NCBI RefSeq assembly: GCF_016584665.1
Contig: NZ_BBJB01000057.1
Coordinates: forward strand, 124,001 to 188,000
Source of the DNA: Pseudanabaena sp. lw0831
GTDB taxonomy: Bacteria > Cyanobacteriota > Cyanobacteriia > Pseudanabaenales > Pseudanabaenaceae
DNA length: 64,000 nucleotides
Direction of reading: 5' to 3'
The position numbers and the translations under genes were made by a program. The notes under the pieces are model-generated. The model was not told the origin of the DNA. It worked only from the letters and a program-made list of their open reading frames with translations, and did no database searches. This document shows, one piece after another, positions 6,818 through 17,882 of the stretch. Each line of letters opens with the position of its first letter. Position 1 is the stretch's first letter.

Positions 6818-7456
6818 TTATGAGGATGTTTTTTCGAGATTATAGGTGAGTTTGTCAGCGATCGCCGCTACCCAATTTTCATCTTGTTTAGTATAGCTAC
6901 GCGGGATATTTGCTCCTAAAACCATGACTCCTTTTTCGCCTAGAGGTTGCACAATTACGCCCTGAGTATTTTCGGGTAGATAGTCAAACTCCACCCGCCC
7001 AGGATAAAGCTCTAGTTTGACTAGATAAATTGGCTTTTGGGTTTTCATCACCCTTGCCGCGATCGTGCCGATATTTACCTGATTGCTCTTGCCTAAGATG
7101 CCCCGCCGTAAAATCGTCTTGCGATCGTAGTAAACCGCCGCCACCTTAGTCACAGTATTAGTTAGCAAAATATGCGAAGCCCAAGCCAGTTCAGTTTTGA
7201 CCGCCTCTGACAAATTCTCATCAAGTTCAAAACCTTCTTCACCAATTAAATTCACTGCATCGGGAGGCTTAGGCTGAGCTTGTTGCCACAGTAGCCCCAC
7301 CAAAATCAAAACCGCGCTCAACAAAACCCCCAAAGCATCAGCGCGAGACTGACTATTTGTAAGATTTGCAGTCACCATGCGATTAGCTAATAGCGCCACG
7401 CCGCCTAAGCCACCCACCACAAGCGGCAAATATCGAATCATCATATCTAAATCCAT
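6818..7456 (-). CDS. Cofactor assembly of complex C subunit B (CCB family)
   Basis: Family implicated in attaching haem ci to cytochrome b6 of the b6f complex (CCB/System IV pathway). The 212 residues begin with two hydrophobic segments (about 9-27 and 42-59), followed by a soluble domain with GRVEFDYLPENTQGVIVQPLGEKG near the end, as I recall for cyanobacterial CCB2/CCB4-like proteins. Transcribed with the DUF2059 gene. A very long palindrome lies immediately upstream (7457-7517). Assignment is by general resemblance. Confidence 0.75.
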   Translation of the reverse strand: MDLDMMIRYLPLVVGGLGGVALLANRMVTANLTNSQSRADALGVLLSAVLILVGLLWQQAQPKPPDAVNLIGEEGFELDENLSEAVKTELAWASHILLTNTVTKVAAVYYDRKTILRRGILGKSNQVNIGTIAARVMKTQKPIYLVKLELYPGRVEFDYLPENTQGVIVQPLGEKGVMVLGANIPRSYTKQDENWVAAIADKLTYNLEKTSS

Positions 7457-7517
7457 TTAAAACCAATAAAATCAGAGGCGATGCCTAGCATCACCTCTGA
7501 TTTTATTGGTTTTAAAA
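7457..7517. repeat. Long palindrome upstream of CCB gene
   Basis: TTTAAAACCAATAAAATCAG reads into its own inverse around GCCTAG; only one pair inside the stem fails to match. It sits between two genes on the same strand and begins next to the CCB start codon, so it could end transcription from the beta-oxidation cluster or shape the CCB leader. Confidence 0.6.
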
Positions 7518-7578: not shown

Positions 7579-10158
7579 TCATAATGCTGCATTGCGATCT
7601 CCTAACCCGTATCCAAAGGCTTTCGATTGAGAATTGGAGACTATCGTGTTTTGGGTGATATTGACGACAGCAGCCAAATCGTAAACCTGAGAGGCATAGG
7701 ACATCGAAGCATAAAGTTTTTCTGGACTGGAAACTTCAGCACCTTGCATATACTCATCAAGGTTAAATGCATCAACCTGAATAGCCTCATTGCGAGCTAA
7801 TTCAGCTTCTCGGAGAAGATTCGCTTCTGCTTCAGAAATAATATTTGCGCTCAAAGCCAATGCGATCGCTTGCTCCAAATTGCGATCAAGTTTAATATTC
7901 AGGATCTGTCCCGATCTCATTGCTGCCTTCAACTTCTGGAAGACTACTTCAGCGCGATCGCTTAGGCTAAGAGCATTTTCTAAACGACCGAGCGCCTCAT
8001 TAGAGTCAGTGGGAATATATATGCCAGAGGTGAGCCGATCACGATCGCTACCAAAGGTTTGGATGCTTTTGGCAATCTGACCACCGAGAGCATCAGTTGG
8101 TAAACTTGCGATCGGATTGAGGCGACACCATCCGCGAAGAGGTACGCGAGCGAGCGCAGGTAAAGGTAAGTTATCGAGAATTCCTTCTAAAGCGATTTGG
8201 ATTTGTGCCAAGCTGTATTGCATCGCCCAGTTCACAAAGGGAAGATCTGCTTCCTGCTGCCCCTCGGCAGTAAACCTTCGTAGAGTGGCGCTGCCCAAAT
8301 ATAGCCAAGAGAGCATATCCGCAAATCTTCCTGTGAGTTTCTCGTGACGTTTCAAACTACCGCCAAAGAGTAAAAAAGCAATATCAGTAAGGAATGCGAA
8401 GGTTGCTGAAGCCCAAGTTAGTTTCTGATAGTAGCGAGCGATCGCTCCAGAAGTTCCTAAATCTGACAGATTGGCAAGATGACCGCGAGATAGACTCAGC
8501 AAGGCACTACGAAATCCATTTTTGACTATGAAACCAAAATGATTCCATAGGAGCATATCTACGGCGATCGCATCTTGTTTTTGTAAGGCTTCGATTTCTT
8601 GATAGATATAGGGATGGCAACGAATTGCGCCTTGTCCGAAAATCATCATCGTGCGCGTGAGAATATTGGAACCCTCGACGGTAATCGGGATGGGCATAGC
8701 AGTATAGAGATTAGCCAGTAAATTGCGTGGCCCGCGACAAATACCTGCTCCACCGAGGGTATCCATCCCATCATTGACGATTTTGCGGGCAAGTTCTGTA
8801 AATTGATATTTAGCGATCGCGGCAGCAACCGCAGGCTTTTCGCCGCGATCAACGGCGGCACAGGTATAAACTCGCGCCGCTTCCATGAGATAGGTCAAGC
8901 CACCAATTCGTGCCAATGGTTCTTCCACACCTTCAAAGCGTCCGATGGGCAACCCAAATTGTTGGCGCACACCAGCATAGGCCCCTGTTACCCGCGTTAC
9001 GAACTTTGCCACGCCTGTGCAGGTAGCAGGGAAGCTAATACCACGTCCTGCGGCAAGGGTTTGCACCAGCATTTGCCAGCCACGACCCGCTTGTTCCACA
9101 CCACCAATAATTTGCGAGATGGGAACCACGACATCCACACCTGCGATCGGAGAGTTGTAGAAGGGGACGCCCATAGGGTCGTGACGCTGACCTAAGATTA
9201 CGCCTGTGGTATTGCTAGGAATCAGAGCGCAGGTAATGCCGACATCTTCATCTTTACTTAAGAGATGATCGGGATCGTAGAGTTTGAATGCAAGTCCGAT
9301 CAGAGTCGAGATCGCGCCTAAAGTAATGTAGCGTTTGCGGAAGTTCAAACGGATGTATAAATTGTCATCTTCTGCTTTAAAGACTACACCCTTCGAGATA
9401 ATGCTGGCGGCATCGGAACCAGCACTAGGTTCCGTTAAGGCAAAACAGGGGATTTCTTCACCGCTTGCTAATCGCGGCAAATAGTGGTCTTTCTGGGTCT
9501 CTGTGCCATAGTTGAGCAGTAATTTGGCGGGTCCCAGAGAATTCGTCACGCCTACGGTGGCTGTGTGGATAAAAGAACGGGAAGCTAACTTCATTATCAC
9601 TGCACTATAGGCAAGACTGGAGAAGCCCAAACCACCATAAGATTTGGGGATCGTCATCCCCAAGAAGCGTTCTTGTTTGAGATAGTCCCACAGAGCGGGA
9701 GGCAAATCTTTGCGACGATGAATTTCCCAATCCGTTGCCATTTCACAGGCTTTTTCGACTTGGATATCGAGAAAAGATTGAATCTCAGGATCGATGGTGG
9801 GATAGGGTTCGCTATTGATGCACTGAAAATCAGGATTTCCTGAAAAGAATTCACCTTCAATCCAGACGGTGCCTGACTCGATTGCTACCTGTTCGGTTGC
9901 CGAAATACTGGGCAAGAGTTTGAGCGATCGAATTAGTTTCATGATTGGAACTGTAGCAAGATTCCGTCGTAGCAATGTTAGATTGAAGACTAGCGCCAGC
10001 ACACCGAAAATTCCCCAAATCTCAAGTGGTGCATTGAAAATTAAAAGGGCGATCGCGCCGTAAAGCGACCACTGCCATAGGGATACGCCCATATATCCCA
10101 GCAATACGAGTGTTGCTAACAAAACGGGAATGGTCATCGCGAAAGGTAAAGTAATCAT
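7579..10158 (-). CDS. fadE: FadE-type acyl-CoA dehydrogenase
   Basis: Would catalyse the first step of beta-oxidation, forming trans-2-enoyl-CoA with FAD and passing electrons to ETF. At 859 residues it matches the long E. coli FadE form: two N-terminal hydrophobic segments, then the dehydrogenase core with CFALTEPSAGSDA, the MGVPFYNSPI region, GRGISFPATCTG, and FadE-like ITVEGSNILTR and FGQGAIRCHPY, followed by a DUF1974-like C-terminal domain. A strong GGGGGAGG lies 9 bases before the ATG. Last gene of the cluster, 25 bases after the thiolase. No etfAB genes are in the window. Confidence 0.9.
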   Translation of the reverse strand: MITLPFAMTIPVLLATLVLLGYMGVSLWQWSLYGAIALLIFNAPLEIWGIFGVLALVFNLTLLRRNLATVPIMKLIRSLKLLPSISATEQVAIESGTVWIEGEFFSGNPDFQCINSEPYPTIDPEIQSFLDIQVEKACEMATDWEIHRRKDLPPALWDYLKQERFLGMTIPKSYGGLGFSSLAYSAVIMKLASRSFIHTATVGVTNSLGPAKLLLNYGTETQKDHYLPRLASGEEIPCFALTEPSAGSDAASIISKGVVFKAEDDNLYIRLNFRKRYITLGAISTLIGLAFKLYDPDHLLSKDEDVGITCALIPSNTTGVILGQRHDPMGVPFYNSPIAGVDVVVPISQIIGGVEQAGRGWQMLVQTLAAGRGISFPATCTGVAKFVTRVTGAYAGVRQQFGLPIGRFEGVEEPLARIGGLTYLMEAARVYTCAAVDRGEKPAVAAAIAKYQFTELARKIVNDGMDTLGGAGICRGPRNLLANLYTAMPIPITVEGSNILTRTMMIFGQGAIRCHPYIYQEIEALQKQDAIAVDMLLWNHFGFIVKNGFRSALLSLSRGHLANLSDLGTSGAIARYYQKLTWASATFAFLTDIAFLLFGGSLKRHEKLTGRFADMLSWLYLGSATLRRFTAEGQQEADLPFVNWAMQYSLAQIQIALEGILDNLPLPALARVPLRGWCRLNPIASLPTDALGGQIAKSIQTFGSDRDRLTSGIYIPTDSNEALGRLENALSLSDRAEVVFQKLKAAMRSGQILNIKLDRNLEQAIALALSANIISEAEANLLREAELARNEAIQVDAFNLDEYMQGAEVSSPEKLYASMSYASQVYDLAAVVNITQNTIVSNSQSKAFGYGLGDRNAAL

Positions 10159-10183
10159 GATCGATTGCCTCCCCCGAAGAGGA

Positions 10184-11374
10184 TTAAGTCATTAAATTCT
10201 CAAATACGGCAGCAGCACCCATGCCACCACCAATACACATCGTCACCAGTCCGTAGCGAATGTGGCGGCGTTTCATTTCATGCAATAGCGTGGCAGTGAG
10301 TTTTGCACCCGTACAGCCTAAGGGGTGTCCCAAGGCGATCGCACCACCATTGACATTGACAATATCCTCATCCAATCCCAATTTGCGAATCACGGCTAAG
10401 GCTTGGACGGCAAAGGCTTCATTCAGTTCGATCAAGCCTATGTCTGCTAAAGTCAGACCAACCTGCGCAAGCACTTTCGGAACAGCGAGAATTGGACCAA
10501 TACCCATGATTTCTGGCGGTACACCTGCGACAGCGAAACCGACCATGCGACCGAGGGGATGCAGTCCAAGCTCGATCATTTTGCGGTGGCTGACGAGAAT
10601 CGAAACCGCTGCTCCATCGGACATTTGCGAAGTATTTCCTGCGGTGACAGTACCACCAATACGAAATGCGGGAGGCAAATGGGCTAAGGCTTCGAGGCTA
10701 GTATCAAAACGTGCGCCTTCATCCATCGATAGAACTGTTTCATGTACTTCAGGTTTGCCATCTACATACAGAGTTTCGCGAACGGTGACGGGAATCACTT
10801 CATCCAAGAGTTTATCCGATCGCATTGCCGCGATCGCGCGTTGGTGAGAACGCAGGGCAAATTCATCTTGCTCAGTACGAGAAATATGATACTGCTCCGC
10901 GATATTCTCAGCGGTATGTCCCATTGCGCTATAAATAGCAGGCATATTTTCCATCAAAACTGGGTTGGGTAGCATCACATGACCACCCATAGGAATCAGA
11001 CTCATCGATTCCACGCCACCCGCGACCATTATTTCCGCTTGTCCCGTAGCAATCGCTTGTGATGCCGAAGTGATCGCTTGCAACCCTGAAGCACAGAAGC
11101 GATTGACCGTCGCACCTGCGACTGTATCGGGAAGCCCCGCGCGTCTGGCGATCACCCTCGCGATATTAAATCCTTGCTCTGCTTCAGGAAAAGCACAACC
11201 AAAGATGGCATCCTCAATGCTGTCAATGGGCAAATTGGGAAGTTTTTTCAGCGCACCTTGCAAGGCGATCTCGCCGAGATCGTCGGGGCGCATATTTCTC
11301 AGCGTGCCGCGATGGGCTTTGCCGACGGCGGTTCGCACGCTACTGACAATATATGTTTCATTCATGGCGTTCAT
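10184..11374 (-). CDS. fadA: Acetyl-CoA C-acyltransferase (thiolase)
   Basis: Last step of beta-oxidation: cleaves 3-ketoacyl-CoA with CoA. About 396 residues, normal for thiolase II. Catalytic residues are visible: the nucleophile Cys in NRFCASGLQAI, the His in GGAIALGHPLGCTGAK, and the second Cys in TMCIGGGMGAA; NEAFAVQALAV is also typical. The frame is open to a TTG at 11395, but the ATG at 11374 has GGAG 9 bases before it. Lies between the FadN-like gene and fadE in the same order as Bacillus subtilis fadN-fadA-fadE. Confidence 0.93.
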   Translation of the reverse strand: MNAMNETYIVSSVRTAVGKAHRGTLRNMRPDDLGEIALQGALKKLPNLPIDSIEDAIFGCAFPEAEQGFNIARVIARRAGLPDTVAGATVNRFCASGLQAITSASQAIATGQAEIMVAGGVESMSLIPMGGHVMLPNPVLMENMPAIYSAMGHTAENIAEQYHISRTEQDEFALRSHQRAIAAMRSDKLLDEVIPVTVRETLYVDGKPEVHETVLSMDEGARFDTSLEALAHLPPAFRIGGTVTAGNTSQMSDGAAVSILVSHRKMIELGLHPLGRMVGFAVAGVPPEIMGIGPILAVPKVLAQVGLTLADIGLIELNEAFAVQALAVIRKLGLDEDIVNVNGGAIALGHPLGCTGAKLTATLLHEMKRRHIRYGLVTMCIGGGMGAAAVFENLMT

Positions 11375-11433
11375 TGTTTTAGTCTCCATAATCAAGATCG
11401 GATTGACCTAATCTGTCTGCGTTTCAACCTATC

Positions 11434-11513
11434 TAGCCCCCTAACCCCCCCAATTCTGGGGGGCTTTGAAAGTCTGTTATTTTCTTGTTCCCCAAGAATT
11501 GGGGGCTAGGGGG
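11434..11513. repeat. C/G-rich inverted repeat between fadA and fadN-like genes
   Basis: TAGCCCCCTAACCCCCC with AATTCTGGGG on one side and CCCCAAGAATTGGGGGCTAG on the other form an imperfect palindrome of the CCCCTAACCCCC type common in cyanobacterial intergenic DNA. It splits the otherwise co-linear cluster. Confidence 0.6.
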
Positions 11514-11517
11514 CGAT

Positions 11518-13872
11518 TTAATTCCTCAACGGCTTTTTCGTTTTCAAAACATGAGCAATCCGTTCTTGCGTCTTTGGTTGCTCCAACAGTGGCAAGAAAG
11601 TTTCCCGTTCCAATTGCAGTAGATACTGTTCCGAAACCAAGGCAGGAGCCGAGAGTTCGCCGCCTGTCATCACATAAGCGAGGCGATTGGCAAGATAGCG
11701 ATCGTATTCGCTGGCATAGCCGCCTTGTTGGAAGAGATATGCCTCATGTTCCAAGACGGCTCTACCAGAACGTCCTAGTACCATGATGCTATTGTTCTCG
11801 ATTGGTGGCAGATAGCCAAGGCGATCGAGATGGAGGATTTCTGCTTTTGCTACCGCTAGACGGCGATCGCCATTGATCACAATCTTTGCACTGGCTGGTA
11901 AGTAACCCATTTCCTGAGCTTCATAGGCACTGGAAGAAACCTTTGCCATCGCGATCGTTTCAAAGACGCGCGTGATTAACGGTTGAATGTGGCTTGGTAA
12001 TTCTGAGGCAGAACGTTCCACCGCACGCTTGACTGTACGCAGAATTCCCCCTGCTCCTGGAATCAGACCGACACTCACTTCCACTAGACCGATATAGGTT
12101 TCGGCGGCGGCGACTACGTGGGGACAAGCGAGGACGAGTTCGCAAGCACCACCGAGAACTCGCCCTTGGATGGCGGCAACGATTGGTTTGGGTGCGTAGT
12201 AAATGCGATGTAATAGATTTTGGAAGTCTACAATCAGTTTTTCCAATACGCCAAGGTTGCCAGATTGCGCGGCGATGACCATTTCTAGCAGATTCGCGCC
12301 ACCAGAGAAATGATCGCTACCATTGCCGATGACCATGCCCTTGTAATGATCTGACATCAAGATATCTAGGGATGCTGATAGACCTTCAAGCACTTTGAAA
12401 CTGAGCGTGTTACCCTTAGAGCGAAATTCGTACAGCAGCACCCCATCACCCAGATCGAGCAGTGCGGCTTCGGAATTTTGCCATACTGTGAGTTTAGGTT
12501 CCGATTTCAGCAGGTCGAGATCGATCGCATCCCGTAGCAATGGCACTGGGACATAGCCCTGTCCATGTCGATAGACTTCCAGATTTTGATGGATATCCTC
12601 TTGATAGAAGTGTTGACCTTCTTTAGAACTCAAGATGTTTACCCATTCAGGCAGAAGGATATTTGCCGATCTCATATCTGCCAAAACTGTTTCAAAGCCC
12701 AGTGCTTCCCAAATCTCAAAAGGCCCTAATTCCCAGCCAAAGCCCCAACACATGGCGCGATCGATATCGAGAGGGCTATCAGCAATTTCAGGAATCCGAC
12801 GGGAGCTGTACGCCAAGATTTCCAGCATGGTTTGACGGAAGAATTCGCCAGCCCTGCCGCGATCTCGATACAGAGCAATCAGGCGATCGGTAAGTGGTAA
12901 TTTGGCGATCGCGGTAACTTCTAAAGAATCAGTGTCATCAGTGGCTTCGTAGGTCAAGGTTTCAGGATTGATGGCAAGAATTGCTGACTTCTGTTTCTTG
13001 TAAAAGCCCTGTCCCGTTTTCGCGCCCAAAGTTCCTGTAGAGACCAGTTTTTGCATAATTTCGGGAACTTGAAAGATCTCGCGACTCTCATCGTCAGGAA
13101 TCGCAGGATACAGATGATCGGTGACATAGGTCAGAGTGTCCAGCCCAATTAGATCAGCAGTGCGGAAGGTTGCGGATTTGGGTCTACCTACCAAGGTTCC
13201 CGTTAAGGTGTCAATTTCGGCGATCGTGTAACCTTTTTCAGTCCATGCTTTGATGGCTAGCAGCGTCGCATACATCCCAATGCGATTGGCGATGAAATTG
13301 GGCGTGTCTTTAGCAATCACGATGCCCTTGCCTAAATGCAATTCTCCAAACCATTGCATTCTCGCTAATACCTGCGGATCGGTGTCCTTAGTGGGAATCA
13401 GTTCCAGCAATTTCAGATAGCGCGGTGGATTGAAGAAATGCGTTCCCAAAAAGCGACTGCGAAAAGATTTTGTGCGTCCTTTAGCGATCGCCTGAATTGG
13501 TAAGCCGCTAGTATTCGTGGAAATAATTGCATCGGGATGGATCACCGCTTCCAATCGTTCCATCAGGGCTTGCTTTGTGGGCAAATCTTCCACAATTGCC
13601 TCAATCACCCAGTCAACTGTGGCTAAGCGATCGAAATGCTCATCAAAGTTGCCAAGAATGACGCGCCGAGAGGTTTTCTCGGTAAAGCAAATTGGTGGTG
13701 ATAGTTTCAGCGCTTTCTTATAAGCCGCCTCCACATGGTCATTCTTGCAACCAGTGCTTGAAGCTAGATTGAGCAGATGTACGGTCAGACCAGCATTAGC
13801 CAGATGGGCGGCGATCTGGCTACCCATCACGCCTGCACCGAGAACAGCAACGGTTCGGAATGGCGTAAACAT
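11518..13872 (-). CDS. 3-hydroxyacyl-CoA dehydrogenase / enoyl-CoA hydratase (FadN-like)
   Basis: Would carry out the middle two steps of beta-oxidation. The 784 residues have the dehydrogenase first: NAD-binding VAVLGAGVMGSQIAAHLA, THFFNPPRYLKLLELIP, KDTPNFIANRIG; then a hydratase domain from about 470 with GGACELVLAC and GLVEVSVGLIPGAGG, where both catalytic glutamates are present. This order (HCDH then ECH) is that of Bacillus FadN, the reverse of E. coli FadB. AGGAGG lies 9 bases before the ATG. Followed by a C/G-rich repeat and the thiolase. Confidence 0.92.
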   Translation of the reverse strand: MFTPFRTVAVLGAGVMGSQIAAHLANAGLTVHLLNLASSTGCKNDHVEAAYKKALKLSPPICFTEKTSRRVILGNFDEHFDRLATVDWVIEAIVEDLPTKQALMERLEAVIHPDAIISTNTSGLPIQAIAKGRTKSFRSRFLGTHFFNPPRYLKLLELIPTKDTDPQVLARMQWFGELHLGKGIVIAKDTPNFIANRIGMYATLLAIKAWTEKGYTIAEIDTLTGTLVGRPKSATFRTADLIGLDTLTYVTDHLYPAIPDDESREIFQVPEIMQKLVSTGTLGAKTGQGFYKKQKSAILAINPETLTYEATDDTDSLEVTAIAKLPLTDRLIALYRDRGRAGEFFRQTMLEILAYSSRRIPEIADSPLDIDRAMCWGFGWELGPFEIWEALGFETVLADMRSANILLPEWVNILSSKEGQHFYQEDIHQNLEVYRHGQGYVPVPLLRDAIDLDLLKSEPKLTVWQNSEAALLDLGDGVLLYEFRSKGNTLSFKVLEGLSASLDILMSDHYKGMVIGNGSDHFSGGANLLEMVIAAQSGNLGVLEKLIVDFQNLLHRIYYAPKPIVAAIQGRVLGGACELVLACPHVVAAAETYIGLVEVSVGLIPGAGGILRTVKRAVERSASELPSHIQPLITRVFETIAMAKVSSSAYEAQEMGYLPASAKIVINGDRRLAVAKAEILHLDRLGYLPPIENNSIMVLGRSGRAVLEHEAYLFQQGGYASEYDRYLANRLAYVMTGGELSAPALVSEQYLLQLERETFLPLLEQPKTQERIAHVLKTKKPLRN

Positions 13873-13899
13873 AATCTTAATCCTCCTGTGGATTTGGAA

Positions 13900-14135
13900 A
13901 GCGGGGATTTTAGATCCCCCCCAGCCCCCCTTATAAAGGGGGGGAATTAATTCCTTCCCCTTTATAAGGGGGATTGAGGGGGATCTCTTTGAGGTTTTGA
14001 CCTCGGAAAGTAATTCTTAAAGTGAATATCTAATTGGTAAAGCGGGGGTTGCTTTAGATCCCCCTCAATCCCCCTTGTAAAGGGGGGAATTAAATTCTTC
14101 CCCCTTTACAAGGGGGATTGAGGGGGATCTCTTCG
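13900..14135. repeat. Two tandem C/G-rich palindromic units
   Basis: Two similar palindromes follow each other (about 13906-13972 and 14061-14130), each built from GATCCCCCTCAATCCCCCTT and its inverse with an AATTAA-like centre. Each is preceded by AAAGCGGGG; the second is bordered by TAATTGGTAAAGCGGGG, a sequence found again at the very end of the neighbouring synthetase gene (14141 onward). Confidence 0.65.
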
Positions 14136-14140
14136 ATTTT

Positions 14141-17100
14141 CTAATTGGTAAAGCGGGGATTGAGCGACTGCGTGAAAATTGGACAGGCGATCGCATCATA
14201 ATCAGCACAATCGAGTTGAACATTTTCAGGTTCTAAATTGTTCGCCTTGTTCCTGTTTTTAAGCTTGCTCTCATCCTGCTCTCCATAGAGAATGTCGATC
14301 TCGCGAGAGAATCTTGCAATTACCGCAGCCCGATTGATTTGCTGATCTGACCTCAGTAAGCCATTTTCTAAAGTCAATTCCGCATCGATCAGCAGAAAGC
14401 GCTTGACATTCGCCCAATAAGGTAAGTGGCAGTTGATTGCATCGATTTCAGCGCGATAGAGTGCCAAGATACAGGGATGACGGAACAGTTCGTCATTACT
14501 TAAGGTGACACTCAATTCAGGGAAACCCAAAGCTCGCACGCGATCGCGTAAAGCACTAAGATTGACAAAGATCAATGCTGAGCAGAACTTGCGATCGGAA
14601 CCGACGATCGTGGCTTGCTTGATCAGAACTGACTTGTTTAGCTGTTCTTCCAAGGGTTGCGGGGCAATATATTTCCCTGTGGAGAGCTTAAACAGAGATT
14701 TCTTCATGCCCGTGATTTTGAGCAAACCATTGTCAGTAAATGCCCCCAAATCGCCTGTATGCAGCCATCCTTGCGGATCGATCGCTGCCTCGGTAGCTGC
14801 TGCATTTTTGTAATAGTCGGGGGTAACGTACAGTCCACGGACAAGAATTTCGCCATCGGCAGCGATCGCAATTTCCACTCCTGGAATCGGACTGCCCACC
14901 GTGCCAGCCCGATTATTGTCCACCCGATTGAAACAGACGACACCACCCGTCTGCGTTAGACCATAACCCTGCAAGACTGGTATCCCTGCGGCATTAAACG
15001 CTTTGGCGATTTCGGGACTTAGCGCCGCTCCACCACTGAGCAGATATTTCAAGCGATCGCCAAATAGCGATCGCCACTGCGTATATACCAATCCATCGGC
15101 AATTTGCATCGCCAGTTTGTTGTGCAAAGCTGCCAGTCCGCGAGGCTGTTGTCCTAGCTCATATTGTTGCGCTAGGCGCAACCCACAGACCGCAATCTGC
15201 TGCTCCCACCACGATGATGATTTCTGGCTGCGCTCCACAATTTTGCTATAGAACTTCTCTAAAAGCAGAGGTATGGAAGCGAGAATTGTCGGTTGGACTT
15301 CCTTTAAATGTCTGAGTACGCGGTTGGGATGGGAGAGGTAAATGCTGTGACCGTAGTACAGATGACCATAGAACAGACAACGCGCAAACACATGGGTCAG
15401 CGGCAAAAAGGATAGCCCCACCTCGCGATCACCCCATTCCATATCCTTTAAACTCGCAAAAGCGGCTAAAGCGTTCCCAGAAAGATTTTCATGGGTCAGC
15501 ATCACTCCCACCAGTTTGCCATTCTCTGCGGGAATGTAGATGATCGTCGCCAGATCCCTAGAGTTCAAACGCGATCGCAAGATTTGGAGATTATGCGCGG
15601 TCGCCCGACTCTGACCTTGGGCTTGCAATTCACTTAGTGAAAATACTTGTAAACATTGAGGTAGGGCAATATCGCGAGATTCTGGAGCAAATTCTGGACG
15701 ATTTCCATGTAGGAACGTATGCAGATCTAGACAAGCTTGGGCAGGAATATTTTGCGTAAATTCCAAGCTATCGTTCTGTATATCCTCTGCCGATTCTGGA
15801 GCTAGCGATCGCGTTGGCTGCCAATCATCAGGAACTTCCGCAATCACAATTTGCTGCAAATTCGGAGCTTTACCCAAATATGGTGCGATTTGCTTCAGTA
15901 AATCCAAATTGGCGATCACCAAAGCCTTGGCTTCACTATGAGATAGCGCCCAGAAAATATTTTCTAAAGTCTGCGTCAAGTCAATCGGTACATCCACTAA
16001 GCCTGCTAATAGACAACCCATATCTGCGATCGCAAAATTGAGATCGTTATGCAGCAGTAAAGCCACGCGATCGCCTTTAGCTAAACCCAAACCGAGCAAT
16101 CCCATCGCCAAAGTTTCCGTTGCCGATTTGAATGCTTGATTGGAATGCGATCGCCAACCAAGATCTGTCCATTGATTAAGAGCTTTGGCATTGGGATTAC
16201 GTTGACAAGCTTCTTCTAACAGCGAAGGTAACGTTCGTCCTAAAGGAACTAAAGCCGCATTTTGTAATGTGTTCGCTAAGAAAAACTGGCAGGTTTGCGT
16301 TCCTGCTAAATCGTGAGCTAGATGGCGATCGAGCCAGATTTCTAAATCAGTAAATACTTTGCGAGCATGGACATCTACGTAGAGATCGTGATAGCTATCA
16401 GGGTATTCTCGATGTTCTTTATCAGGAAAGATCACCCGTTGGAAAAAAGCACGACTGGCTTCGGGAAGCGTGACGCGATCGGAATTGCCATGCATCACTA
16501 ACAATGGGATTTTAATCTCCGATGCATGGCTGTAAATCCAGTCTACGGTTGAGGAGAATTCTGTCGCCAGACGTGCAGTTCCATATTCATGTCTCAATGG
16601 ATCTTGCTCGTAAGCAAGTTGTTCGGCTGGAGTTCGGGCATTACCTTCATGGGGAATCCCCAATTTCAAACTGAACCTTGGTAATACGTTAGAAAATAAT
16701 TTCCCCAAAGATAACTTGAAATTCGAGATATTTACCTTATTCAAAGCAGGCGCAGTCACGATCGCACCCTGAATATTTTCAGGATAGTGCAAGATATAGT
16801 CAAGGGCGATCGTCCCGCCTAGGCTATGTCCCCAAAGGATATAAGAACAGCAAACCCGTTGCGATCGAATCTGTTGCAATAGAAGATGTAAATCTTCGCG
16901 AAATTCTTGCCAACGATTGATGTAGCCGCGTTGTCCCTCAGAACGTCCATGTCCTCGTAAATCTAGGGCATAGACCTCATAGCCTTGGGGAACCAAATAG
17001 TCCACCACATTCTGAAATACGCCACTATGTGTACCCAAGCCATGAATGAGAACAACGATCGCATGGCTAATTCCCTCTGGTTGCCAGCTTTGATAGTAGA

Positions 17101-17146
17101 GATGGCATCCTTCATACCCCAATAACGTTCCTTCTATATGTTTCAC
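14141..17146 (-). CDS. Lipase / acyl-CoA synthetase fusion
   Basis: A two-domain protein of about 1001 residues. N-terminal alpha/beta hydrolase (about 1-280, monoacylglycerol-lipase type): HGLGTHSG, LDLRGHGRS, GHSLGG with Ser108, HGNSDRV with Asp223, SYHDLYVD with His253. C-terminal AMP-forming synthetase (about 300-985): LTHENL, LPLTHVF, QGYGLTQTGG, GWLHTGDLG, STGKYIAPQPLEE. The ATP-loop usually written TSGTTGxPKG reads IPAENGKLVG (about 538-547), YGLTE reads YGLTQ, and GRKK reads GMKK, so activity is uncertain. A GTG at 17206 is open but lies in a repeat; the GTG at 17146 has GGGGAGG 9 bases upstream and is preferred. Would feed fatty acids to the genes downstream. Confidence 0.85.
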   Translation of the reverse strand: MKHIEGTLLGYEGCHLYYQSWQPEGISHAIVVLIHGLGTHSGVFQNVVDYLVPQGYEVYALDLRGHGRSEGQRGYINRWQEFREDLHLLLQQIRSQRVCCSYILWGHSLGGTIALDYILHYPENIQGAIVTAPALNKVNISNFKLSLGKLFSNVLPRFSLKLGIPHEGNARTPAEQLAYEQDPLRHEYGTARLATEFSSTVDWIYSHASEIKIPLLVMHGNSDRVTLPEASRAFFQRVIFPDKEHREYPDSYHDLYVDVHARKVFTDLEIWLDRHLAHDLAGTQTCQFFLANTLQNAALVPLGRTLPSLLEEACQRNPNAKALNQWTDLGWRSHSNQAFKSATETLAMGLLGLGLAKGDRVALLLHNDLNFAIADMGCLLAGLVDVPIDLTQTLENIFWALSHSEAKALVIANLDLLKQIAPYLGKAPNLQQIVIAEVPDDWQPTRSLAPESAEDIQNDSLEFTQNIPAQACLDLHTFLHGNRPEFAPESRDIALPQCLQVFSLSELQAQGQSRATAHNLQILRSRLNSRDLATIIYIPAENGKLVGVMLTHENLSGNALAAFASLKDMEWGDREVGLSFLPLTHVFARCLFYGHLYYGHSIYLSHPNRVLRHLKEVQPTILASIPLLLEKFYSKIVERSQKSSSWWEQQIAVCGLRLAQQYELGQQPRGLAALHNKLAMQIADGLVYTQWRSLFGDRLKYLLSGGAALSPEIAKAFNAAGIPVLQGYGLTQTGGVVCFNRVDNNRAGTVGSPIPGVEIAIAADGEILVRGLYVTPDYYKNAAATEAAIDPQGWLHTGDLGAFTDNGLLKITGMKKSLFKLSTGKYIAPQPLEEQLNKSVLIKQATIVGSDRKFCSALIFVNLSALRDRVRALGFPELSVTLSNDELFRHPCILALYRAEIDAINCHLPYWANVKRFLLIDAELTLENGLLRSDQQINRAAVIARFSREIDILYGEQDESKLKNRNKANNLEPENVQLDCADYDAIACPIFTQSLNPRFTN

Positions 17147-17197
17147 TGTCGCTACCTCCCCTAAGATGGGATCTGAAGTTGCTTGTGATATACTTAT

Positions 17198-17312
17198 GCC
17201 CTGCACTCAAGTGCGGGCTGAAAGCTCAAACCCGTTGAAACGGGTTAATTAGAAGATTTCTTTAGTCTGCTTCAGCAGACTTTAGCTTTTAGCCCGCACT
17301 TGAGTGCAGGGC
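17198..17312. repeat. Nested inverted repeat upstream of fusion gene
   Basis: Perfect 22-base outer arms at 17198-17219 and 17291-17312 (GCCCTGCACTCAAGTGCGGG core) enclose two smaller hairpins, AACCCGTTGAAACGGGTT and AGTCTGCTTCAGCAGACT. The structure resembles a small non-autonomous insertion sitting between the regulator and the fusion gene. Confidence 0.65.
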
Positions 17313-17333
17313 TATAGGAACTATAGGAACTTG

Positions 17334-17882
17334 TTAATTCTGGATTTCTATAGAATTTGACTCAGTATCGAAGGGCAGAGAAGTTGATGATTTGATTTGG
17401 TTCAGTACGATATTTGTGCGTACCTTCTCAACGCCTGGCATTGGCGTGATCTGCTCATTGAGAAATCGTTCTAGCTGTTGGTGATCTGATGCGACCACCT
17501 TCAATAAATAGTCAAATTCTCCAGTCAGATGGTGGCATTCCAATACTTCAGTTAACCCCTTCATCCGTTCGCAGAACTGACCGACACATTCTGGTTGATT
17601 ATGGGTGAGGGTAACTTGGGTAAAACAGAGCAGATCGAGTCCCAATGCCTCACGATTTACTAGTGTTACGTATCCATCGATGCAACCACTTTCTTCTAGT
17701 TTTTTAAGCCGTTTTTGCAACCCAGGTGGGGTGAGATTTAGCTGACGAGCCAATTCTACATTACTCGTTCGACTGTTTTCTTGTAAGAGTTGCAACAGTA
17801 ATTTATCGCGATCGTCTAACTGCTGAAACTGTTCTGGTTGCTTATCTGTAGGGTTGCGTTTAAGAGATTTTTTCTTTTGCAA
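17334..17882 (-). CDS. Lrp/AsnC-family transcription regulator
   Basis: 182 residues: winged helix-turn-helix about 22-75 (LDDRDKLLLQLLQENSRTSN then LARQLNLTPPGLQKRLKKLEESG), and a RAM ligand-binding domain about 85-165 (TGEFDYLLKVV, MPGVEKVRTNIVLNQIK). Members bind amino acids or other small molecules and form octamers. The TTG start has GGAGGGG 5 bases before it; no ATG fits better. First gene on this strand before the beta-oxidation genes, so it is a natural candidate to control them. A 27-bp perfect palindrome lies about 95 bases upstream. Confidence 0.88.
   Translation of the reverse strand: MQKKKSLKRNPTDKQPEQFQQLDDRDKLLLQLLQENSRTSNVELARQLNLTPPGLQKRLKKLEESGCIDGYVTLVNREALGLDLLCFTQVTLTHNQPECVGQFCERMKGLTEVLECHHLTGEFDYLLKVVASDHQQLERFLNEQITPMPGVEKVRTNIVLNQIKSSTSLPFDTESNSIEIQN

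Follow-up and report, generated by a model that had tools for sequence, protein, structure and literature searches.

Can a cyanobacterium degrade fatty acids without an electron-transfer flavoprotein (ETF)? We analysed a stretch of 64,000 nucleotides from Pseudanabaena sp. lw0831 (assembly GCF_016584665.1, contig NZ_BBJB01000057.1, positions 124,001 to 188,000 of the forward strand; hereafter, the window) and confirmed five minus-strand open reading frames (ORFs) at 7579-17882, for an Lrp/AsnC-family regulator, a lipase/AMP-binding fusion protein, a FadN-like protein, a thiolase (FadA) and an acyl-CoA dehydrogenase (FadE). That the cluster encodes beta-oxidation enzymes is close to certain. 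Judged from sequence, our preferred reading, to which we give a probability of roughly 0.55, is that of an old cyanobacterial beta-oxidation operon that would run without ETF. The original prediction had placed these five families on one strand, and coordinates, Pfam and NCBIfam all agree; its broad claim that the strain can degrade fatty acids is right as well, but the strain is not special and two expected parts are missing. The cluster can therefore not be called complete-looking, as it had been: the genome has no match to ETF or ETF-quinone oxidoreductase (ETF-QO), and the AMP-binding domain is devoid of its core catalytic motifs. The missing ETF is the most informative result.

In the pathway we propose, the lipase domain would release a fatty acid from a glycerolipid, and the fatty acid would be converted to acyl-CoA in an uncertain step, whether by an Aas-like enzyme or by a different ligase, while the cluster's own AMP-binding protein would be kept for a later or different reaction. 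FadE would then yield 2-enoyl-CoA and, with no ETF in between, pass its electrons to an acceptor in the membrane, which would most likely be the plastoquinone pool itself; FadN would hydrate the 2-enoyl-CoA and oxidise the product with NAD+, and FadA would cleave off acetyl-CoA. We hold it to be very likely that FadE works without ETF. Direct reduction of quinone by the enzyme is a tentative proposal that falls a little short of an even bet.

An E. coli-type FadE in genomes without a match to ETF

The fadE gene (7579..10158, minus strand, as are all features given below) encodes a protein of 859 aa composed of Acyl-CoA_dh_N/M/1 and the C-terminal ACDH_C domain (PF09317, E 1e-89; residues 512-798, 7765..8625). 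Glutamate E495 in VEGSNILTR (8674..8676), the presumed catalytic residue as in the ACAD family, is invariant in 44 sequences. At 1001.8 bits, FadE passes the cut-off of NF007000 (PRK09463 subfamily; 600) and stays below that of the narrow FadE_coli model NF038187 (849.2 bits vs 1300); we thus assign it to the subfamily of NF007000 rather than to FadE_coli in the narrow sense. A Bacillus-type FadE was considered and rejected, as NF058590 gave 106.2 bits vs a cut-off of 600. The order fadN-fadA-fadE is, as had been noted, that of B. subtilis. By sequence, the unit is a Bacillus-like gene order combined with an E. coli-type FadE.

The predicted structural model of FadE (predicted local distance difference test score, 87.3) has helices at residues 6-78 (9925..10143), a proposed membrane anchor, ahead of the enzyme core. 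It resembles VLCAD/ACAD9 in a fold search (Z about 34-35), in which the matched rows span residues 97-711 at most, so that the N-terminal helices and the C-terminal end are unplaced. Hydropathy shows two strong hydrophobic stretches in the N-terminus, at residues 2-20 and 45-63. Two to three strong N-terminal hydropathy segments are present in 51 of the 53 cyanobacterial FadE sequences whose start is covered and in 11 of 12 others, and E. coli FadE has three such peaks. We infer that the hydrophobic N-terminal helices may anchor FadE by inserting into the membrane. At its other end, residues 814-859 have low model confidence. A repeat of ~92 bp (7616-7707) overlaps the last fadE codons; it has a further copy in this genome (L047:6543-6634, 87%) and one in another genome of the genus (L046, 82%), and it may have lengthened the reading frame.

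The ETF profile, PF01012, matches nothing in the window genome, which is 99.97% complete, and nothing in any of 68 distinct cyanobacterial carriers of FadE (49 from loci L058-L107 plus 17 plus five including the window genome, after removal of three duplicates), whereby 66 of the 67 cyanobacterial loci introduced below were covered, all but L074. That ETF was missed by a weak search was rejected, since the same profile detects ETF in all four sister-class genomes with FadE and in 10 of the 14 controls. In a 386-genome sample of the phylum, PF01012 matches 181 genomes; the window's class contributes just two, G177 and G330, both of family f26. For comparison, an acyl-CoA dehydrogenase match occurs in 28 genomes of the sister class, 26 of which have ETF. 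PF05187, a domain of ETF-QO, was likewise found neither in the window genome nor under 29 cyanobacterial handles representing 28 distinct genomes.

FadE without a match to ETF is not confined to cyanobacteria. Three non-cyanobacterial FadE genomes have no PF01012 match: a Campylobacterales metagenome-assembled genome (MAG; L127), a Lentisphaerales MAG (L131) and Lentisphaera marina (L132), the last with the same four-gene order of synthetase, fadN, fadA and fadE. In a gammaproteobacterial sample, the class of a locus titled Salinisphaera (L136), 154 of 258 genomes have ACDH_C/FadE, 62 of these with ETF above the cut-off and 92 without; FadE and ETF are not associated there (odds ratio 1.22, p = 0.51); ETF hits scoring less than the curated cut-off, two in all and one of these from a genome with FadE, were treated as negative. 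Because E. coli-type FadE occurs so often without ETF, we do not take the missing ETF as refuting beta-oxidation; FadE probably needs none. The original prediction had named an absence of any ETF from the genome as an outcome that would speak against beta-oxidation; none was found, and that reading is nonetheless retained here.

The remaining cycle enzymes appear intact, as had been stated for the hydratase and thiolase residues. The fadN-like gene (11518..13872; 784 aa) encodes 3-hydroxyacyl-CoA dehydrogenase (HCDH) and enoyl-CoA hydratase (ECH) domains in the order 3HCDH_N, 3HCDH and ECH_1 (PF02737, PF00725, PF00378). It matches NF052272 (FadN/Staph FadB; HCDH_N-HCDH-ECH order) over its full length with 632.9 bits, below the exception-model cut-off of 999, and is hence named FadN-like only. 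Crotonase glutamates E578 and E598, as well as HCDH residues H145/E157, are invariant in five aligned cyanobacterial sequences, and the window protein is 56-73% identical to four relatives. The fadA-like thiolase (10184..11374; Thiolase_N/C, PF00108 and PF02803) exceeds the TIGR01930 subfamily cut-off (450.8 bits vs 240.55) and lies below the narrower fadA model TIGR02445 (350 vs 591). Its Cys/His/Cys residues, presumably the catalytic set, were seen by eye in the ORF.

The degenerate AMP-binding domain and acyl activation

The fusion gene is most likely 14141..17146, with its ORF open to 17206 and a probable GTG start at 17146 preceded by GGGGAGG; in L039, where the lipase is a separate ORF, that ORF starts at the residue corresponding to this GTG. 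Its lipase domain (Hydrolase_4; PF12146, E 1.5e-65; residues 48-278, 16373..17065) contains, as read by eye, GHSLGG, the nucleophile elbow. The second domain (PF00501 and PF23562; residues 330-977, 14276..16219) is of the AMP-binding (ANL) type and its motifs are not intact, a point absent from the original prediction. At the A3/P-loop position (15506..15538) YIPAENGKLVG replaces the canonical YTSGTTGxPKG, and at the A10 position (14339..14341) Gln956 replaces the catalytic lysine. The canonical A3 form is found in relatives within the same genome.

This loss is largely shared by the cyanobacterial copies. None of the 54 aligned cyanobacterial synthetase sequences, counted after the short ORFs of L085, L134 and L068 had been dropped, has an intact A3 core (Y[TS][ST]G[TS]T). 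At A10, six carry Lys, 39 carry some other residue and nine are gapped; at A5, 37 retain the glutamate and the other 17 have Gln. Homologues from Lentisphaera (L132) and Campylobacterales (L127), as well as the Aas-like protein of the window genome, keep the A3, A5 and A10 residues. The region of the A8 motif (FKLSTGKY) stays conserved among the synthetase copies, and the predicted model of the domain retains the ANL fold, the only fold in its Foldseek list.

With adenylation motifs lacking in nearly all copies, activation is inferred to come from elsewhere, and of all the pathway steps it is the one of which we are least sure. The window genome holds seven other AMP-binding matches. Three, on contig C4, lie in long ORFs that by their length look like nonribosomal peptide synthetases (NRPS); the others are a MenE (TIGR01923, above cut-off), a malonyl-CoA-synthase-like protein slightly under its cut-off, and two proteins read by eye as acetyl-CoA-synthetase-like and Aas-like, the latter under all listed NCBIfam cut-offs. 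A more daring proposal would be that FadE is a self-contained, membrane-anchored acyl-CoA:quinone oxidoreductase feeding the plastoquinone pool of photosynthesis and respiration and, at the same time, that the adenylation-dead ANL protein is a transacylase moving acyl groups from acyl-ACP (acyl carrier protein), as made by Aas, to CoA. We regard this combination as a long shot. If true, the transacylase would join acyl-ACP recycling to beta-oxidation without a second ATP-spending step.

Conservation and age of the operon

A scan of named genomes with five FadE sequences gave 143 relatives, of which the best 80 were taken further; judged by record titles and gene content, 67 of these 80 loci are cyanobacterial. 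By title, the carriers include Fischerella, Calothrix, Chlorogloeopsis, Nodosilinea, Acaryochloris and Pleurocapsales. Synthetase, fadN, fadA and fadE lie on the same strand and in this order in all 53 cyanobacterial loci with at least 7 kb of upstream sequence. In 32 of these 53 loci, a lipase match precedes the synthetase on the same strand; three have it elsewhere, and in 18 none was found. The lipase-synthetase fusion is exceptional: a similar long ORF occurs in L067, with separate ORFs elsewhere. A homologue of the regulator was detected upstream of the operon in two of the best 80 loci (L066 and L088), many loci having short flanks. Three of the 53 loci, L068, L085 and L134, have short AMP-binding ORFs (344, 357 and 473 aa) that are perhaps broken or mis-assembled.

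Within the 386-genome sample, full-length FadE is present in five genomes of the window's class, namely the window genome (G000) and G185, G332, G060 and G209, the latter four at 60-70% identity to the window protein. In the sister class, family f30 has three full-length matches at 47-49% and a partial one at 40%. FadN matches at E <= 1e-40 fall in the same five window-class genomes, and in no others of that class, plus two sister-class genomes.

We built quick trees with SH-aLRT (Shimodaira-Hasegawa-like approximate likelihood-ratio test) support only. In the FadE tree, which is midpoint-rooted, 69 cyanobacterial rows fall on one side of a branch with support of 100, opposite 17 others, and they form one clade only if the root lies outside them. 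Nostocales (14 rows) and Acaryochloridales (four rows) are each confined to one side of a branch in the FadN tree, where order labels need 18 changes vs a mean of 32.6 after shuffling. Labels of Leptolyngbyales and Nodosilineales are scattered, which counts against a single gain followed by inheritance; transfer among cyanobacteria or poor labels are possible sources. All four genes show ratios of nonsynonymous to synonymous substitution of 0.05-0.17 in seven pairs, hand-picked as close pairs, and are thus under purifying selection in the sampled pairs. The trees suggest one old gain in cyanobacteria, mostly inherited and often lost. A gain by transfer as an event of this strain, as put forward in the original prediction, does not fit the 67 cyanobacterial loci with FadE, the order kept in 53 of 53 and the order-level tree groups; an old transfer into cyanobacteria is compatible with the data.

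The cyanobacterial origin of the window cluster itself is supported by the adjoining CCB2/CCB4 gene, by the kinship listing and by the FadE tree. Contamination was rejected, the cluster lying on a 190-kb contig beside the CCB2/CCB4 gene. In the same FadE tree, L068, a MAG titled Candidatus Gracilibacteria, bears the cyanobacterial operon and pairs with Hydrococcus; it is probably mislabelled or mis-binned.

Competing explanations and known systems

Where do the electrons of FadE go? Two alternatives contest only the acceptor. FadE could be an oxidase whose FADH2 is reoxidised by O2 to give H2O2, such that neither ETF nor quinone is needed. E. coli FadE has been reported as a source of H2O2 in a passage of PMC11495604, which shows no stoichiometric H2O2 formation by the enzyme; within the sample, 27 genomes of the window's class have other matches resembling acyl-CoA dehydrogenases and none of the 27 has ETF, and the fold list holds a solved oxidase, the prolyl-ACP oxidase AnaB (4irn). 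However, the best matches of the FadE model are VLCAD/ACAD9-type proteins, and a soluble oxidase would leave the conserved N-terminal hydrophobic helices unexplained, making this option rather unlikely. Alternatively, ferredoxin, flavodoxin or an unrecognised flavoprotein, soluble or membrane-bound, might replace ETF. An unrelated carrier would escape both the PF01012 and the PF05187 search, but the conserved four-gene unit includes no such protein (its other neighbours were not searched systematically), and we consider a replacement unlikely.

Two further alternatives concern the purpose and the history of the operon. It might make or trim a specialised acyl chain, as in lipid remodelling or in the formation of acyl-plastoquinol or hydroxyacyl precursors, rather than serve common fatty-acid catabolism. 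The patchy distribution, the lipase next to a degenerate synthetase and the scarcity of isocitrate lyase would fit, but one-way trimming would not need all cycle enzymes, thiolase included, to be kept together under purifying selection, as seen in the sampled pairs; this appears quite unlikely. A recent acquisition by the window strain alone draws on two sampled genomes of the same genus, G344 and G280, neither with a FadN match, the former without FadE and the latter matching only the repeat at the fadE end. Against it, the window FadE lies inside the cyanobacterial side of the FadE tree and the FadN tree keeps Nostocales and Acaryochloridales each together. Recent strain-specific transfer was rejected on these two trees and is very improbable.

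What speaks against an ancient, ETF-independent operon for fatty-acid breakdown? Hydropathy alone is no proof of membrane insertion. Of the 13 genomes from outside the cyanobacteria that belong to the best 80 loci, 10 have ETF, so that its use by some FadE proteins is still allowed, and some absences may be assembly gaps, as completeness is not stated for the genomes of the loci or for the 258-genome sample. PF05187 is also unmatched in E. coli and in L121 and L124, the latter two ETF-bearing, which makes the absence of ETF-QO weak evidence. The degenerate AMP-binding domain may not be wholly inactive, and its decay is graded, in that the A5 Glu, the A10 Lys and the A3 lysine are all present in four copies (records of Pleurocapsa, Xenococcus and Xenococcaceae). 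Finally, a convincing isocitrate lyase is found in just five of 50 cyanobacterial carriers (L062, L072, L075, L081 and L126), and net growth on fatty acid is unlikely without this enzyme.

The last point bears on the fate of acetyl-CoA. The window genome has no isocitrate lyase match. Among 52 genomes (the 50 carriers, a same-genus non-carrier and Lentisphaera marina), 17 have matches, five of them strong and in two parts and 12 weak, the weak ones probably being other members of the superfamily. A glyoxylate shunt is possible in the five carriers with strong matches. As isocitrate lyase is mostly missing, acetyl-CoA is likely respired or recycled, and most carriers would probably do this instead of growing on fat.

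How does our preferred reading, a cyanobacterial operon that degrades fatty acids without ETF, relate to what is on record? According to passages in two papers, cyanobacteria do not have beta-oxidation (PMC6123915) and the pathway is missing from Synechocystis (PMC11973298). At odds with these, a passage in PMC3750487 refers to fatty acid recycling via beta-oxidation in Synechococcus elongatus; we found no support for this claim here, S. elongatus not having been searched by name. In Nostoc punctiforme, PMC7660261 mentions an acyl-CoA dehydrogenase and a 3-hydroxyacyl-CoA dehydrogenase amid polyketide synthase and NRPS genes. The cluster had been thought little described. However, the passage on Module 303 in a 2018 pan-genome co-occurrence study of cyanobacteria (PMC5862535) tells of an operon-like unit of acyl-CoA dehydrogenase and 3-hydroxyacyl-CoA dehydrogenase genes around a gene annotated as thiolase in some strains, which is very probably the operon type seen in the window. 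Neither ETF nor the type of FadE nor the degenerate synthetase comes up in that passage. In the titles and abstract openings of the open-licence papers retrieved, we found nothing that treats either an ETF-free cyanobacterial FadE or the degenerate synthetase; within that set, these are features found nowhere in print.

The nearest systems each share a part of this arrangement. E. coli FadE (b0221) belongs to the same family, with an ACDH_C domain and a hydrophobic N-terminus, but is encoded by a separate gene in an ETF-positive genome, whereas the cyanobacterial gene stands in an operon with fadN and fadA and without an ETF match. The FadN(FadB)-FadA-FadE locus of Bacillus and Staphylococcus has the HCDH-ECH order of NF052272 and, for B. 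subtilis, the same gene order; the window differs in a FadE of another family, far below the NF058590 cut-off, and in the missing ETF match. Closest is Lentisphaera marina (L132), where ACS-fadN-fadA-fadE agrees in its four genes, their order and the lack of an ETF match (FadE 47%, FadN 44% and FadA 56% identity to the window), but the synthetase keeps canonical A3, A5 and A10 residues.

For E. coli FadE, passages in PMC11495604 and PMC9329746 leave the role of ETF and the electron acceptor open, and the latter calls the link of FadE to the respiratory chain a crucial question. Dozens of FadE-positive genomes without an ETF match would make the acceptor question cleanly testable, free of confounding by ETF. 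The operon also corrects the claim that cyanobacteria have no beta-oxidation, which bears on the design of biofuel strains and on models of lipid turnover, and it points to AMP-binding proteins that have kept their fold and lost their adenylation motifs under continuing selection.

The outermost gene of the cluster, at 17334..17882, encodes the regulator (182 aa, TTG start, GGAGGGG site). With PF01037 and PF13412, it belongs to the Lrp/AsnC family by Pfam, and it lies below the NF008370 Lrp equivalog cut-off (119.9 bits vs 233). Strong ribosome sites had been reported for all five genes. They are good ahead of lrp, fadN and fadE; for the fusion gene and fadA they are found, as read by eye, solely at starts later than that of the longest ORF, the fadA ORF being open to 11395 and its likely ATG start at 11374 preceded by GGAG. 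Between lrp and the fusion gene, the region 17200-17300 has by eye the look of an inverted repeat, with GCACTCAAGTGC and GCACTTGAGTGC at its ends, and between fadE and the CCB2/CCB4 gene, at 7456-7516, there is an inverted repeat of 61 bp that matches its own reverse complement at 92%.

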